61,640 nucleotides of DNA from Gemmatimonadota bacterium (GTDB lineage: Bacteria > Gemmatimonadota > Gemmatimonadetes > Longimicrobiales > Gaopeijiaceae), in the NCBI GenBank assembly GCA_009692205.1, contig SHZR01000016.1, positions 1-61,640 on the forward strand. Direction: 5' to 3'. The notes below the pieces were generated by a model, which was given only the letters and a program-made list of their open reading frames with translations, ran no database searches and was not told the origin of the DNA. The stretch's first letter is position 1, and the number at the start of each line of letters is the position of its first letter. The position numbers and the translations under genes are program-made. Of this stretch, positions 5,102-29,204 are shown in pieces.

Positions 5102-6007
5102 ATGGCTGCATCAACGGTCGGGGCCTTGGGGTCCGTCCTCGTCGTCGCGGGTACCTGGGCGGCGGCGGCGGCGCCGCTCGACGCGCCCCCGCGCGCGACG
5201 GAGCTCATCGCCGGCAGCCCGGCCGGCTGCGCGATGGGACCATTGCAGCTGTCGGGCTTCGAGGTGGCCGACGGATACCTCAAGGCGCCGAACACGGGTG
5301 CGACGACGCACCACCAGTTCTACTTCGCGCGCGCGATGTACTCCGAGGGAGGCCGGTTCGGTTTCTTCGGTCGCGGTGACAGTTGGCTCGGGGACGGCGG
5401 TCCCGGGTGGTCGACCGACTATCCGAGCGCCGACCGCCACATGATGATCGTGGCGAAGCGCCTCTCGAACCTCGACGCGTGCGAATGGGGACAGCCGGTC
5501 TCGCTCGCCGACCCGGACCTCAGGCGCTTTCCTTTCCTCTACTCGCTCGAATGGGGCCGCAACGCCGACCTCTCGGAGCCCGAGATCGAGGGGCTCCGCA
5601 GCTTCTTGGCGGCGGGCGGTCTCCTGATGCTGGACGACTTCTGGGGAAGCCAAGAGTGGGCGAACGTCGAGTACCAGATCACCCGCGTGCTTCCCAACCG
5701 GCCGATCGTCGACATCCCGCTCAGTCATGTGCTCTTCCGCGCGCACTACACGATCGAGGGACCGATCATTCAGGTGCCCGGAGCCGGCGGCGGCATCTAC
5801 GGAAGGGGGACGTCGCAGCGCGACGGCTACGACCCGATCGTGAAGGGCGTGTTCGACGATGAGGGGCGCATCATGATCGCCGTTTACGGCAACACGGACC
5901 TCGGCGACGCGCTCGAGTGGGCGGAAGACCCGATGTATCCGCTGGAATTCTCGACGTACGCGTCGAAGCTCTTCCTCAACACGATCATGTACGCGATGAC
6001 GTACTAG
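5102..6007 (+). CDS. DUF4159 family exported protein
   Basis: Protein of 301 aa with a hydrophobic leader (VGALGSVLVVAGTWAAAAAP), followed by a DUF4159 domain related to the class-I glutamine amidotransferase-like fold. FYFARAMYSEG, MIVAKRLSNLD, FPFLYSLEWGRN, LRSFLAAGGLLMLDDFWG and FSTYASKLFLNTIMYAMT are the conserved blocks. The family is common near aerotolerance-type MoxR/VWA operons, but no such operon is here. An in-frame GTG lies at 5087; I prefer ATG 5102. Function is unknown. Confidence 0.8.
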   Translation: MAASTVGALGSVLVVAGTWAAAAAPLDAPPRATELIAGSPAGCAMGPLQLSGFEVADGYLKAPNTGATTHHQFYFARAMYSEGGRFGFFGRGDSWLGDGGPGWSTDYPSADRHMMIVAKRLSNLDACEWGQPVSLADPDLRRFPFLYSLEWGRNADLSEPEIEGLRSFLAAGGLLMLDDFWGSQEWANVEYQITRVLPNRPIVDIPLSHVLFRAHYTIEGPIIQVPGAGGGIYGRGTSQRDGYDPIVKGVFDDEGRIMIAVYGNTDLGDALEWAEDPMYPLEFSTYASKLFLNTIMYAMTY

Positions 6008-9548: not shown

Positions 9549-10763
9549 TCACGCGGTGGAGTTCGCGCCCACGCTGGCCGCGATACGGGCCAGCGCGTCT
9601 TCGAGCACCTCGTCGGACGCGGCGTAGCTCATCCGCACCCAGCGGTCGTCGCCGAACGCCGCGCCGGGCACGAGGGCGACGCCCTGGTCTTCCAGGAGCC
9701 GCGAGCACCACGCGGTGGCGTCGCGCACGTCGGCCGTGAAGAAGCCGTCCACGCGGAAGTACAGGTAGAATGCGCCTTCAGGTTCGACGAACGGCACCTC
9801 GGGGAGCAGCCCGCGCATGCGCGTGGTCACCAGGTCGCGGCGACGCCGGAACGCCGCGCGCATCTCGGCGACCGATGCGTTCGCCGCGCGCACGTTCGAG
9901 TACGCCTCGAGCGCCGCGACCTGCGCGGGCGTCGTCGGATTCGACGTGATCTGGCTCTGCAGTGCGGCGAACTTCTTCGAGAGCTCCGGGTCTGCCCAGG
10001 TGAAGCCGATCCGCCATCCCGTCATCGCGAAGGCCTTCGAGGCGCCGTCGATGAGCACGAACGGGCCGAGGCTCGACGTCGGCAGCTCGAGCAGACCGGG
10101 TGCGGGCTCGCCTTCCGGGCCGTAGTAGATCGCGCGGTAGATCTCGTCGCTGAGCAGCCACACGTTGCGATCGCGCGCCCACTCGGCGATGCGCTGCACC
10201 TCGGCGAGCGAGTAGACGGCGCCGGTCGGGTTGCATGGGCTGTTGAGCACGAGGCCGCGCGTGCGGGTCGTAACCGCCTTGTCGAGGTCGGCCGTCGTGA
10301 TCTTGAAGCTCTTTCGCTCGTCGCCCATGACGAGGACGGGCTCCGCGCGCGCGATCGTGACGAGGTCCGGATACGTGGTCCAGTACGGAGCGGGTACGAT
10401 CACCTCGTCGCCCGGGCCGAACAGCGTGAAGATCGCGTTGAAGAGCGCCTGCTTGGCGCCCGACGTGACCACGACACCCTCCCAGTGCATGTCGCGCCCT
10501 GCGCGCTCGGTGAGCCGCGCGGCGATCGCCTTCCGCAGAGCGGGCGTGCCGGCCGGTGGCGTGTACCGCGTCTGTCCGGTCTGGATGCCGCGGATCGCGG
10601 CTTCGCGCACGAAGGCCGGCGTGTCGAAGTCCGGCTCGCCCGCGCTCAGGTCGCGGATGTCCCGGCCCTCGCTCGCCAGGCGCTTCGCGAGCGCGCTGAC
10701 GGCCATGGTCGCGGACGGTTTCAGCTTCCTGACGTTTTCGCTGAGCTGCATGCTGGACTGCAT
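9549..10763 (-). CDS. Class I/II pyridoxal-phosphate aminotransferase (aspartate aminotransferase-like)
   Basis: PLP enzyme of fold type I, 404 aa, probably transferring amino groups between aspartate or similar acids and 2-oxoglutarate. LSAGEPDFDTP and RYTPPAGTPALRKAI are typical of the Igamma aspartate/prephenate aminotransferases. PLP contacts are seen in NSPCNPTGAVY, LLSDEIYRAIYY and the Schiff-base Lys in DGASKAFAMTGWRIGF; the substrate-binding Arg is near the C-terminus in GDDRWVRMSYA. ATG 10763 fits the family start; an ATG at 10811 would overlap the divergent gene. Only 46 nt separate the two divergent starts. Confidence 0.92.
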   Translation of the reverse strand: MQSSMQLSENVRKLKPSATMAVSALAKRLASEGRDIRDLSAGEPDFDTPAFVREAAIRGIQTGQTRYTPPAGTPALRKAIAARLTERAGRDMHWEGVVVTSGAKQALFNAIFTLFGPGDEVIVPAPYWTTYPDLVTIARAEPVLVMGDERKSFKITTADLDKAVTTRTRGLVLNSPCNPTGAVYSLAEVQRIAEWARDRNVWLLSDEIYRAIYYGPEGEPAPGLLELPTSSLGPFVLIDGASKAFAMTGWRIGFTWADPELSKKFAALQSQITSNPTTPAQVAALEAYSNVRAANASVAEMRAAFRRRRDLVTTRMRGLLPEVPFVEPEGAFYLYFRVDGFFTADVRDATAWCSRLLEDQGVALVPGAAFGDDRWVRMSYAASDEVLEDALARIAASVGANSTA

Positions 10764-26155: not shown

Positions 26156-26495
26156 CACATAGACCGGTTTCTCTGGGGGCGCGTACCAACGGCGGCTCGT
26201 CGGCGGAGGTGAGGCAGCTCCTCGCGGACGGGCCTTCCCGGGACAAAGCGCCTGGGTTGCTGCCTTCAGCGAGATCACGGATGAGTTCGACGGCGCCGCG
26301 TTCGGCTCCTTGGTTCTCACGTTCGCGGGAGGTGTGTCGCTAGAGTCACGCACCCAGCCGCCAGAGTCGAGTGTTCACGACGCTGCGCGCGGCCTCGAGC
26401 TTCGGAGATCCATAGCGCGTGCGCGCGGCGGTCCGTGCGCGGGCGGAGGAGATCGCGCTCCGGGGCGGCACACCATCATACGGGGATCGTCTCGG
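26156..26495. other. Intergenic stretch without recognisable content
   Basis: Between the cruciform and the stop of the BLUF gene no frame reads like a known protein, and no tRNA, promoter pair or terminator stood out. Short open frames exist on both strands but show no conserved pattern. Confidence 0.4.
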
Positions 26496-26915
26496 TCAGC
26501 CCGCGAGCGTCGTGATCAGCTCCTCGAGCAGCGCCAAAGCCCTCTCGGTCGACAGCGTCGACGGGTCCAACTCGGCACGCTCCGAGTAGCGGAGCAACGT
26601 GCTCGGGTTCACTTGGTTGAGGTCGATCCGTCCCATGCGCCAGCTGGAGAAGCGTCGCTCGCCGATTTCAGCGTAGCCGAGCAACAGCACGTCCGTGTGA
26701 CGGGGGTCCCGCACGATCTTGTTGTAGAGTCGATTGACTTCGTCGCGTGAGCCTTCGAGCACCTGCAGGAAACTGTTGCCGGCCTCGTGGGCGCACAGGA
26801 CCCCGGTGATTCCCCGGGACTGGTTGTAGCCACGCGACTGCTGGAGGACCGTATCCAGCATCTTTGCCGTGATCGGTTCCGCGGCCCGACTCGCGTAGAT
26901 CAGCCTGACGAGCAT
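26496..26915 (-). CDS. BLUF-domain blue-light photoreceptor
   Basis: Protein of 139 aa consisting of one BLUF domain (blue-light sensing using FAD) and a short C-terminal helical tail. The photochemical residues are present: Tyr7 in RLIYAS, Asn31 in YNQSRGITGVL and Gln51 in FLQVLEG; RDPRHTDVLLLGYAEIGERRF and SSWRMG are typical. With no effector domain it would signal through protein contacts. It starts 1 nt from the folE stop on the same strand and is the last gene of the operon beginning at 28031. Light absorption itself is well known for the family; the partner is not. Confidence 0.88.
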   Translation of the reverse strand: MLVRLIYASRAAEPITAKMLDTVLQQSRGYNQSRGITGVLCAHEAGNSFLQVLEGSRDEVNRLYNKIVRDPRHTDVLLLGYAEIGERRFSSWRMGRIDLNQVNPSTLLRYSERAELDPSTLSTERALALLEELITTLAG

Positions 26916-26916
26916 A

Positions 26917-27615
26917 TCAGCGCCCTCCCTTCTGGCTGGCGAGCAGAGCGAGGAACTCCCTCCGCAGGCTGGCGTCCCTGAGGAACGATCCTCGCATCAC
27001 GCTGTTGGTCATCTTGGAGTCCATGTCTTTGACGCCGCGCCAATGCATGCAGTAGTGATCGGCCTCCATCACGATGGCGAGCCCATCCGGCCGCATCTTC
27101 TCTTGCAGGAGTTCGGCGAGCTGAGTGATAGCCTCTTCCTGGATCTGGGGGCGGGTCATGATCCATTCGACCAGCCGCGCGTAGTTCGAGAGTCCAATCA
27201 GCGCCGAGCTCTCGTTGGGCATGACGCCGACCCAGACGCGTCCGATGATCGGGCAGAGGTGGTGAGAGCACGCGCTGCGCACGGTGACCGGGCCAACGAT
27301 CATGAGCTCGTTGAGCCCGGACACGTTGGGGAATTCGGTCACCCCCGGAGCGGCCGCATATCGCCCCGCGAATACCTCGCGAACGAACATCTTGGCCACT
27401 CGGCCGGCGGTGTCCTGCGTGTTGTGGTCGTTCTCGATGTCGATGACGAGGGAGCGCAGGGCCTCGCGGAGGTGTGTTGCGACCTCGGCCTGGATGAGGT
27501 CCAGTTCACCCGGCTCGACGTAGGCGCTGATGTTGTCGTTCGCGTAGAACCGCTCACCTGCGGCCTGTAGCCGAGCGCGCACGAGCTCCGACGCTCGGTC
27601 GGCGGTCGGGTCCAT
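26917..27615 (-). CDS. folE: GTP cyclohydrolase I
   Basis: Converts GTP to 7,8-dihydroneopterin triphosphate, the first step toward folate and pterins and, through QueD and QueE, queuosine. It has 232 aa, with zinc ligands Cys116 and His119 in SACSHHLCPIIGRVWVG and Cys189 in EADHYCMHWRGV; GLSNYARLVEWIMTRPQIQE is canonical. The N-terminal 40 residues are longer than usual. The gene is third in an operon (two small membrane proteins upstream, BLUF downstream) under the repeat-containing promoter at 28060. In light-responsive bacteria a folE copy is often induced together with photolyases, whose antenna is a pterin or folate. Confidence 0.95.
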   Translation of the reverse strand: MDPTADRASELVRARLQAAGERFYANDNISAYVEPGELDLIQAEVATHLREALRSLVIDIENDHNTQDTAGRVAKMFVREVFAGRYAAAPGVTEFPNVSGLNELMIVGPVTVRSACSHHLCPIIGRVWVGVMPNESSALIGLSNYARLVEWIMTRPQIQEEAITQLAELLQEKMRPDGLAIVMEADHYCMHWRGVKDMDSKMTNSVMRGSFLRDASLRREFLALLASQKGGR

Positions 27616-27634
27616 GCCCGTCGTCCTCTAGCGG

Positions 27635-27817
27635 CTAGCGGCGCTCGTCGCGCGTCGCGAGCGGCCGGCGTACGACGTCGTGCGCGGGCTTGGCCTTCGC
27701 TCCGGCGGGCTCTGCCCGCTCGGAGGCCACGAAGCTCTGGAGCAGGACGGTGTAGGCACCGGCCACGGCTATGAACGTCACCACGCAGCCGAAGGCGAGC
27801 AGGTTTCCGTTATCCAC
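27635..27817 (-). CDS. Tiny single-span membrane protein
   Basis: Protein of 60 aa from a GTG start: DNGNLLAFGCVVTFIAVAGAY is one membrane helix near the N-terminus, followed by a charged cytoplasm-like tail (ASERAEPAGAKAKPAHDVV). It overlaps the upstream small gene by 8 nt and ends 19 nt before folE, so cotranslation is likely. Not recognised; shaped like a small accessory subunit. Confidence 0.6.
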   Translation of the reverse strand: MDNGNLLAFGCVVTFIAVAGAYTVLLQSFVASERAEPAGAKAKPAHDVVRRPLATRDERR

Positions 27818-28031
27818 GGGGCCCGCCGATCAGAAGCGTTCCGGCGGAGAGGATGGATGGCACCCAGATGCCGACGAAGATCCCCTGTTCCTGGTTGCCT
27901 GAGAAGAACAGGTAGACCGAGGCTACGAACGAGAGACCGGCGGCCAGGAAGATCAGGCCACGGCCGATGTCGATGGGGAAGGCGCGGGTGCCGGGGATGC
28001 CGCGGGGCTGGGCCGGGCGGTCGACTTGCAT
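27810..28031 (-). CDS. Small two-span membrane protein, first gene of the folE-BLUF operon
   Basis: Protein of 73 aa with two hydrophobic stretches (GRGLIFLAAGLSFVASVYLFF and GIFVGIWVPSILSAGTLLI). ATG 28031 has an AAGGA ribosome site nine nt upstream (GAAGGATCCTCTTCC) and lies about 26 nt after the predicted transcription start. It is the promoter-proximal gene and overlaps the next. Function unknown. Confidence 0.65.
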   Translation of the reverse strand: MQVDRPAQPRGIPGTRAFPIDIGRGLIFLAAGLSFVASVYLFFSGNQEQGIFVGIWVPSILSAGTLLIGGPRG

Positions 28032-28059
28032 GGAAGAGGATCCTTCGGAAAAGGTGAAG

Positions 28060-28092
28060 GGTAAGTATAACCTGTGTACATCTAATGTCAAA
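28060..28092 (-). promoter_or_regulatory. Promoter made of three 11-bp direct repeats (CarH/LitR-like operator)
   Basis: On the minus strand the sequence is TTTGACATTAG, ATGTACACAGG, TTATACTTACC: three tandem 11-bp units, each containing a variant of TnTACA (TTGACA, TGTACA, TATACT). The first unit holds a perfect -35 (TTGACA) and the third a -10 (TATACT), 16 bp apart. CarH, the B12-dependent photoreceptor of the MerR family, is known to bind 11-bp direct repeats of the type TnTACA that overlap the -35 box. The regulator itself is not in the window. Downstream lies the operon 28031-26496. Confidence 0.6.
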
Positions 28093-28319
28093 CTAAAAGA
28101 TGAACAAATCTTCGTCTTCGCCGCTTCTCGATGCGCTCCGGGCTCAGTTCGCTGGCGAAGTAGGCTTCATCGTATTGCTTCATGGATCGCCCGACGGTCG
28201 CGCCACCCCGTCTTTCTCGCACGTCGTTTGCGACCGAGCGGTCTGCTCGCGAATAGCCGGTCGGGCATCCATCTTGCCCACCGGTATCGCCCTTACGTCG
28301 AACCCTCGGAAGCACCGCC

Positions 28320-29204
28320 ATGAACAATCTCCAGAGAATCGCCTCCGCCCTCGCCCTCACCACCGTGGTTGCCTCCCCCGCGATGGCCCAAACCATCGAT
28401 GCGGGCCGCGGGCCGGTCCCGCTCACCGTACCCATGGGCTACGACACCGACGTCCCAATTCCGCTCATCGTTTCGCTGCACGGCTACAGCGGCAGCGGTG
28501 AGGGTCACGACCGCCGCTGGGGCATCAGCGCGCTGGCGGATCGATACAACTTCCTCACGATCGCGCCCGATGGCACGAGAGAGGCTGAAGGCGACCGCAA
28601 TCCCTATTGGAACGCGTCCAGCGCCTGCTGCAATTTCGCGGGGACGGACATCGACGACTCCGCCTATCTGCGGCGCATCATCGACCAGATCAGGGCGAGC
28701 TACAACGTGGACGCGAGTCGTATCTACGTCATCGGCCACTCCAACGGCGGCTTCATGAGCTACCGCATGGGCTATGAGCACTCGGATGTGGTCGCGGCGA
28801 TCGTCAGCCTCGCCGGCGCGAATCACCTCGAGCAGCGGGAGCCTCCACCCAATCCCGTTCACGTCCTGCAGATCCACGGTACCGATGACACCACCATCGC
28901 GTACCGCGGCGGGGAGATCCAAGGCAACCGATACCCGGGGGCCTTCGCTAGCGTGAGCCGCTGGGCCCAGTACAACGGTTGTGACACGTCGGTGGCCAGC
29001 CGCGAGATGCGTGACTTGGATGCTTCGCTGCCCGGCCATGAGACGGGGGTGATGAAGATCAACGCCGGGTGCAGAGACGGCGGCTCCGCGGAGCTCTGGA
29101 CGATCTCCGACGGCGCCCACTCGCCCGTGTACTCCGACACCTGGGGTGAGCAGATCGTGGAGTGGCTCCTGGCGCATCCGAAGCCGGCGCACCTGCTCGA
29201 CTGA
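28320..29204 (+). CDS. Exported polyhydroxybutyrate depolymerase/feruloyl esterase-like protein (LpqC family)
   Basis: Secreted alpha/beta hydrolase of 294 aa. The signal peptide is IASALALTTVVASPAMAQ. The oxyanion loop is in LIVSLHGYSGSGE, the nucleophile in VIGHSNGGFMSYRM, the acid in LQIHGTDDTTI and the His in SDGAHSPVY. CCNFAGTDIDDSAYLRRIIDQI is characteristic of the LpqC/esterase-PHB depolymerase group, which acts on polyesters or feruloylated glycans. Its promoter would lie near the repeat promoter of the divergent operon (227 nt away), so shared control is possible but unproven. Confidence 0.85.
   Translation: MNNLQRIASALALTTVVASPAMAQTIDAGRGPVPLTVPMGYDTDVPIPLIVSLHGYSGSGEGHDRRWGISALADRYNFLTIAPDGTREAEGDRNPYWNASSACCNFAGTDIDDSAYLRRIIDQIRASYNVDASRIYVIGHSNGGFMSYRMGYEHSDVVAAIVSLAGANHLEQREPPPNPVHVLQIHGTDDTTIAYRGGEIQGNRYPGAFASVSRWAQYNGCDTSVASREMRDLDASLPGHETGVMKINAGCRDGGSAELWTISDGAHSPVYSDTWGEQIVEWLLAHPKPAHLLD

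Follow-up and report, generated by a model that had tools for sequence, protein, structure and literature searches.

The window analysed here, a 61,640-nt stretch of a Gemmatimonadota contig, carries on its minus strand four consecutive genes for two small membrane proteins, a GTP cyclohydrolase I (FolE) and a short BLUF blue-light sensor, which raises the question of what controls their common promoter. The sequence-only reading had described this promoter as three 11-bp direct repeats, with the -35 TTGACA in the first and the -10 TATACT in the third. Both the repeats and the placement of the hexamers were confirmed on the minus strand at 28092-28060, where three adjoining units carry TTGACA, TGTACA and TATACT at exact 11-bp steps (Table 1). 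These 33 bp are in all likelihood the operator-promoter of the four-gene operon, at which CarH would repress in the dark.

Table 1. Repeat units and genes of the folE-BLUF operon; positions are those of the window, strand in brackets.
Feature	Position	Description
DR1	28082..28092 (-)	TTTGACATTAG; TnnACA is TTGACA (28091-28086), doubles as the -35 hexamer
DR2	28071..28081 (-)	ATGTACACAGG; TnnACA is TGTACA (28080-28075), within the promoter spacer; the sole unit not forced by -35/-10
dr3 (pseudo-repeat)	28060..28070 (-)	TTATACTTACC; TATACT (28069-28064), doubles as the -10 hexamer
Inverted half-site TGAACA	28101..28106 (+)	Minus strand TGTTCA; weak unit 9 bp upstream of DR1
Weak fourth unit TTCACC	28053..28058 (-)	In 11-bp phase with the repeats; absent from G003
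Small membrane protein, 73 aa	27810..28031 (-)	Leads the operon; no Pfam family
Small membrane protein, 60 aa	27635..27817 (-)	GTG start; 8-bp overlap with the preceding gene; also present in G003
folE, GTP cyclohydrolase I	26917..27615 (-)	PF01227
Short BLUF blue-light sensor, 139 aa	26496..26915 (-)	PF04940

As a promoter, TTGACA-N16-TATACT matches sigma-70 at 11 of 12 positions and is the sole promoter-like site within 26300-28400 (shuffles 0.2). CarH operators are built from the unit nnnnTnnACAn, repeated three to four times in tandem over the -35/-10, with imperfect units or pseudo-repeats tolerated (PMC9304148). At the folE promoter we found such tandem 11-bp units in the order DR-DR-dr and their overlap with the -35/-10; units 1 and 2 fit the published TnnACA in full and unit 3 lacks the final A. 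The operator core had earlier been given as TnTACA, which has to be replaced by the published consensus TnnACA (PMC9304148); a strict TnTACA triple used as search pattern returned weak matches only and was dropped, TnnACA fitting better. The pattern TnnACA-N5-TnnACA-N5-TnnAC occurs once in the window and in none of 100 window shuffles, and TTGACA-N5-TnnACA likewise has a single match there (mean of 0.02 in shuffles). In the whole genome of this uncultured lake bacterium (2.7 Mb, 98% complete, 61 contigs) the TnnACA-TnnACA-TnnAC triple is again found a single time, its reversed-pattern control not at all.

A -35 and a -10 hexamer set 16 bp apart already dictate much of units 1 and 3, so that the middle unit TGTACA is the only independent evidence that the promoter itself offers. 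An ordinary sigma-70 promoter, with a spacer that resembles a repeat by chance and an operon outside CarH control, would thus owe most of units 1 and 3 to its hexamers alone and leave to chance a TnnACA at the fixed middle position, for which the probability at the spacer composition is about 0.006. The uniqueness of the triple in the genome speaks against such a coincidence, as do the comparisons with carH loci and with related genomes.

For the carH loci, we took 25 carH genes from this genome and its relatives, each with 260 bp of upstream sequence. There were 41 TnnACA pairs spaced by 11, in 22 of the 25 loci, whereas unphased spacings averaged 1.5 (about 27-fold fewer); further peaks at 22, 31-33 and 42-43 correspond to whole helical turns. 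Of 42 TTGACR sites, 18 were followed by TnnAC at offset 11, and no other offset had more than three. A matrix was trained on 37 pairs from 19 loci of other genera, leaving out the own genus, and applied to the window and to the genome's own carH/fas and outer-membrane protein (OMP) promoters, while genome-wide scans were done by pattern. In the window the folE promoter ranked first and second (22.8 and 18.1); the next unrelated site scored 11.8, and the top sites of shuffled windows 8.9-14.5. A margin this wide, obtained with sites from other genera, argues against chance resemblance. The same matrix also picked out the own carH/fas and OMP promoters.

The motif is also specific in its distribution: among 184 loci retrieved for other purposes, TTGACA-N5-TnnACA occurred nowhere except at carH loci and, in this genus, at the folE-BLUF promoters, with no strict match at the housekeeping folE loci of relatives (L014-L040). 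This bears on whether another reader of 11-bp direct repeats could use the site, be it a PhoB/OmpR-type response regulator, a BldC-like protein or another MerR protein. Direct repeats with a period near one helical turn are known binding sites of PhoB/OmpR-type and BldC-like regulators, the Pho box being of this kind; the unit here, however, is the TnnACA motif, which clusters at the family's carH loci and is absent at housekeeping folE loci, and we regard a different regulator as extremely improbable.

Upstream of carH in relatives (L041-L067), inverted TGTnnA/TnnACA half-sites recur at helically phased gaps of 9-10, 19-21 and 30-32. The arrangement suggests repeat blocks that face each other at divergent promoters. 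Two of these loci (L057 and L064) carry four perfect tandem TnnACA units on the divergent strand, those of L064 being TTGACA, TATACA, TGTACA and TGCACA, and such four-unit operators would be good substrates for in vitro work.

The repeat had been expected to be conserved before orthologous operons, and in a sister species of the same genus (G003) this was the case. The operon is the same, with FolE 94% identical, and the orthologous promoter reads TTGACA/TAAACA/TATACT in the same 11-bp register, the middle unit having changed from TGTACA to TAAACA and still being TnnACA. Within the 16-bp spacer all four TnnACA bases were kept and four of the 12 others (about 0.04 for this alone, direct promoter conservation being judged from this one sister promoter). 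The upstream inverted half-site reads TGGACA for TGAACA there and retains the T..ACA form. In two further genomes from other genera of the family (G017 and G288), folE-BLUF are the last genes of a fas-AOx-DUF1365-CFA-CFA-SRPBCC operon and therefore lack such a promoter of their own. In G017, carH is divergent from the fas operon with a TTGACA-TGTACA operator in between; in G288 the contig starts inside the fas operon, and the carH end lies outside view. Since each has either the G003-type promoter or membership in the CarH-divergent operon, all four family genomes with this BLUF couple folE-BLUF to predicted CarH-type control, in two different ways. That G003 keeps TnnACA although inner bases have changed, and that G017 and G288 have folE-BLUF within the CarH-divergent operon, adds to the case against a chance promoter, which we consider very unlikely.

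An operator of this kind calls for a regulator, and the search for a protein joining a MerR-type HTH to a B12-binding domain, proposed along with the repeats, succeeded. The genome encodes a single CarH/LitR homologue of 310 aa (G000:C57:9693-10625), on a contig other than that of the folE operon. The domains MerR_1 (PF13411), B12-binding_2 (PF02607) and B12-binding (PF02310) are above cut-off, and the closest solved relative is Thermus thermophilus CarH (TtCarH, E about 2e-26). Both RxWERRY (RAWERRY) and Wx9EH (WETSEVTMAQEH) are intact, and so is the B12 motif ExHx2G-x41-SxV-x27-GG (ERHALG...SMV...GG), read against the class I CarH/LitR form D/ExHx2G-x41-SxT/V-x22-27-GG. As the protein scores 129 bits with the NCBIfam CarH equivalog NF052513, under the cut-off of 400 bits, we call it a CarH/LitR homologue and not an equivalog. 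A cobalamin adenosyltransferase (PF01923) is encoded in the genome as well. Several relatives (G002, G020, G027, G043, G051, G055 and G058) have two or three CarH/LitR homologues.

How this homologue would respond to light is less straightforward. Of the SignatureFinder elements, GxxW (GAGW), EH and GxxH (GERH) were found, and GxxxP reads STDLP (SxxxP). The residue after the Trp of Wx9EH, which in TtCarH is His132 and forms the light-state bis-His link, is a Glu; His at this position is present in many CarH proteins, not all, and was seen in several relatives (e.g., L049 and L051). In one report the TtCarH H132A variant bound AdoCbl normally yet stayed mostly tetrameric in the light (PMC10442372), and the light response of the homologue should therefore not be taken for granted. 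CarH might accordingly bind the repeats while another light sensor, for example the BLUF protein, holds or releases it in place of AdoCbl photolysis. The missing His132 and GxxxP fit such an arrangement, as does the membership of the short BLUF in the regulon, and precedents exist in a short LOV protein acting on class II LitR (PMC9758184) and BluF acting on BluR (PMC3509220). However, the homologue has intact Wx9EH and ExHx2G motifs for AdoCbl, the genome encodes an adenosyltransferase, the cobalamin-binding Rossmann domain that class II LitR has lost is retained, and most carH-bearing relatives have no close homologue of this BLUF; across the phylum, such homologues were found in just 12 of 395 genomes. 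Control by a different sensor thus appears unlikely, and direct control by AdoCbl-loaded CarH is the reading we follow.

At its own locus, carH is divergent from an operon for a fasciclin (fas), an FAD amine oxidase, DUF1365, a CFA/UfaM-type synthase, SRPBCC, a photolyase-like protein and NmrA/DUF2867. A search for the same repeats before photolyase genes had been proposed, and 11-bp repeats do occur at promoters of this photolyase/UfaM-type operon adjoining carH. Genome-wide, TNKACA-N5-TNKACA gave six exact pairs: one is the folE promoter and three are on the carH/photolyase contig, namely one in the fas leader and two at the promoter of the OMP gene at the opposite end of the photolyase operon (operator-like repeats at 9579-9595 and 1945-1988 of C57). 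The outer-membrane beta-barrel gene is a probable further CarH target. At its promoter (L008) the two TnnACA pairs are head to head, and the gene is likewise accompanied by repeat pairs in G003 (L076, near 5282-5292). The remaining two TNKACA pairs were rejected as chance-like, C4:19286 lying beside a tRNA-like stretch and C59:5733 within a TATACACG...CGTGTAT palindrome. The own carH-direction promoter has one clear unit only (TTGACA, then TGGGCC) and is therefore missed by the strict -35 pair pattern. Repeats, promoter overlap, conservation, regulator and an operator common to the putative targets can thus all be read from the DNA. A second folE at G000:C9:42825 looks housekeeping-like.

Beyond the family, a FolE search gave 80 close loci (L082-L161), mostly from Beta- and Gammaproteobacteria with some from Acidobacteriota, Myxococcota and others. 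In 75 of the 78 loci with enough flank, drawn from several phyla (e.g., L089, L102 and L122), the gene immediately after folE encodes BLUF. CarH repeats before folE-BLUF in some 78 loci of other phyla were no more frequent than chance, with no strict match, so the CarH wiring of folE-BLUF appears lineage-specific; by gene order, the pair is distributed more widely than this predicted wiring. Relatives of the 73-aa membrane protein adjoin folE-BLUF in Myxococcota and Acidobacteriota MAGs (e.g., L084, L110 and L149). In one of these, a Myxococcota MAG (L084), a single 9.6-kb contig unites folE-BLUF with genes for a CarH homologue, the small membrane protein and a fasciclin, the last preceded by a TTGACA-N5-TGGACG repeat.

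A pair that is kept with or without a CarH operator hints at a direct relation of FolE and BLUF; with folE so constantly at its side, BLUF may have FolE as its partner in place of a MerR-type repressor. More tentatively, and with more doubt than confidence on our side, CarH might switch on the short BLUF, which would then act on FolE as a light-driven regulator or on CarH as an anti-repressor. Our literature search found no paper on BLUF with GTP cyclohydrolase and none tying CarH/LitR to Gemmatimonadota.

The folE promoter shares with the CarH operators of Thermus thermophilus, Bacillus megaterium and Myxococcales the tandem nnnnTnnACAn units of 11 bp, three to four in number, the pseudo-repeats, the -35/-10 overlap and a CarH homologue in the genome; it differs in its target, folE-BLUF instead of carotenoid genes, in the non-adjacent carH and in the phylum (PMC9304148). 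The class II LitR proteins of Pseudomonas (PplR/PmlR) control photolyase, UfaM, FAD oxidoreductase and folE, the last being light-induced under LitR (PMC9758184). This light regulon resembles the one described here, as does the separate flavin blue-light sensor encoded alongside. However, in Pseudomonas LitR the B12 region is reduced to its four-helix bundle, where both B12 domains are intact here; the protein is released by a short LOV protein instead of accompanying a BLUF, and its sites are described as TGTACA-N12-TGTACA (PMC9758184). In Escherichia coli, BluF-BluR likewise couples a BLUF protein to a MerR-type repressor, but BluF is a BLUF-EAL protein and BluR a shorter MlrA paralogue (PMC3509220), whereas the BLUF-only protein here is a putative target of the repressor.

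Taken together, the CarH homologue, the matrix rank, the repeats at carH loci and the conservation in G003 support the proposal of a CarH/LitR-like light operator. Unit 3 is imperfect, the hexamers account for part of units 1 and 3, the regulator falls short of the equivalog cut-off and departs from TtCarH at His132 and GxxxP, carH is on another contig, and folE-BLUF relatives outside the lineage lack the repeats; with these points counted against it, we still hold the CarH reading with considerable confidence. From homology and operator identity, we infer CarH binding at the folE promoter, dark repression, dependence on AdoCbl and light, and the roles of FolE and BLUF. In the dark, AdoCbl-loaded CarH would bind the tandem 11-bp TnnACA repeats over the -35/-10 and block RNA polymerase. 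In the light, the Co-C bond would break, CarH would leave the DNA, and the operon would be transcribed along with the fasciclin-FAD oxidase-DUF1365-CFA/UfaM-SRPBCC-photolyase operon and the OMP gene. Dark repression and light release of the four genes at a CarH operator are thus strongly favored by the sequence, and light very probably turns on the folE-BLUF gene set. The operon would then serve photoprotection: FolE may make pterin/folate available for antenna cofactors of the photolyase type, and BLUF may be a second, blue-light sensor added to CarH control.

With these results, light control of the CarH type and its readable operator code would reach an uncultured freshwater lineage of Gemmatimonadota, in which the CarH target would be a photorepair/pterin programme rather than carotenoids. 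The predicted regulon of at least three promoters could be tested in vitro from synthetic DNA. Less expected were a short BLUF under putative CarH control and a folE-BLUF pair kept across phyla. A BLUF sensor under a cobalamin sensor would form a layered light circuit, and the role of the short BLUF may become testable via its FolE partner.
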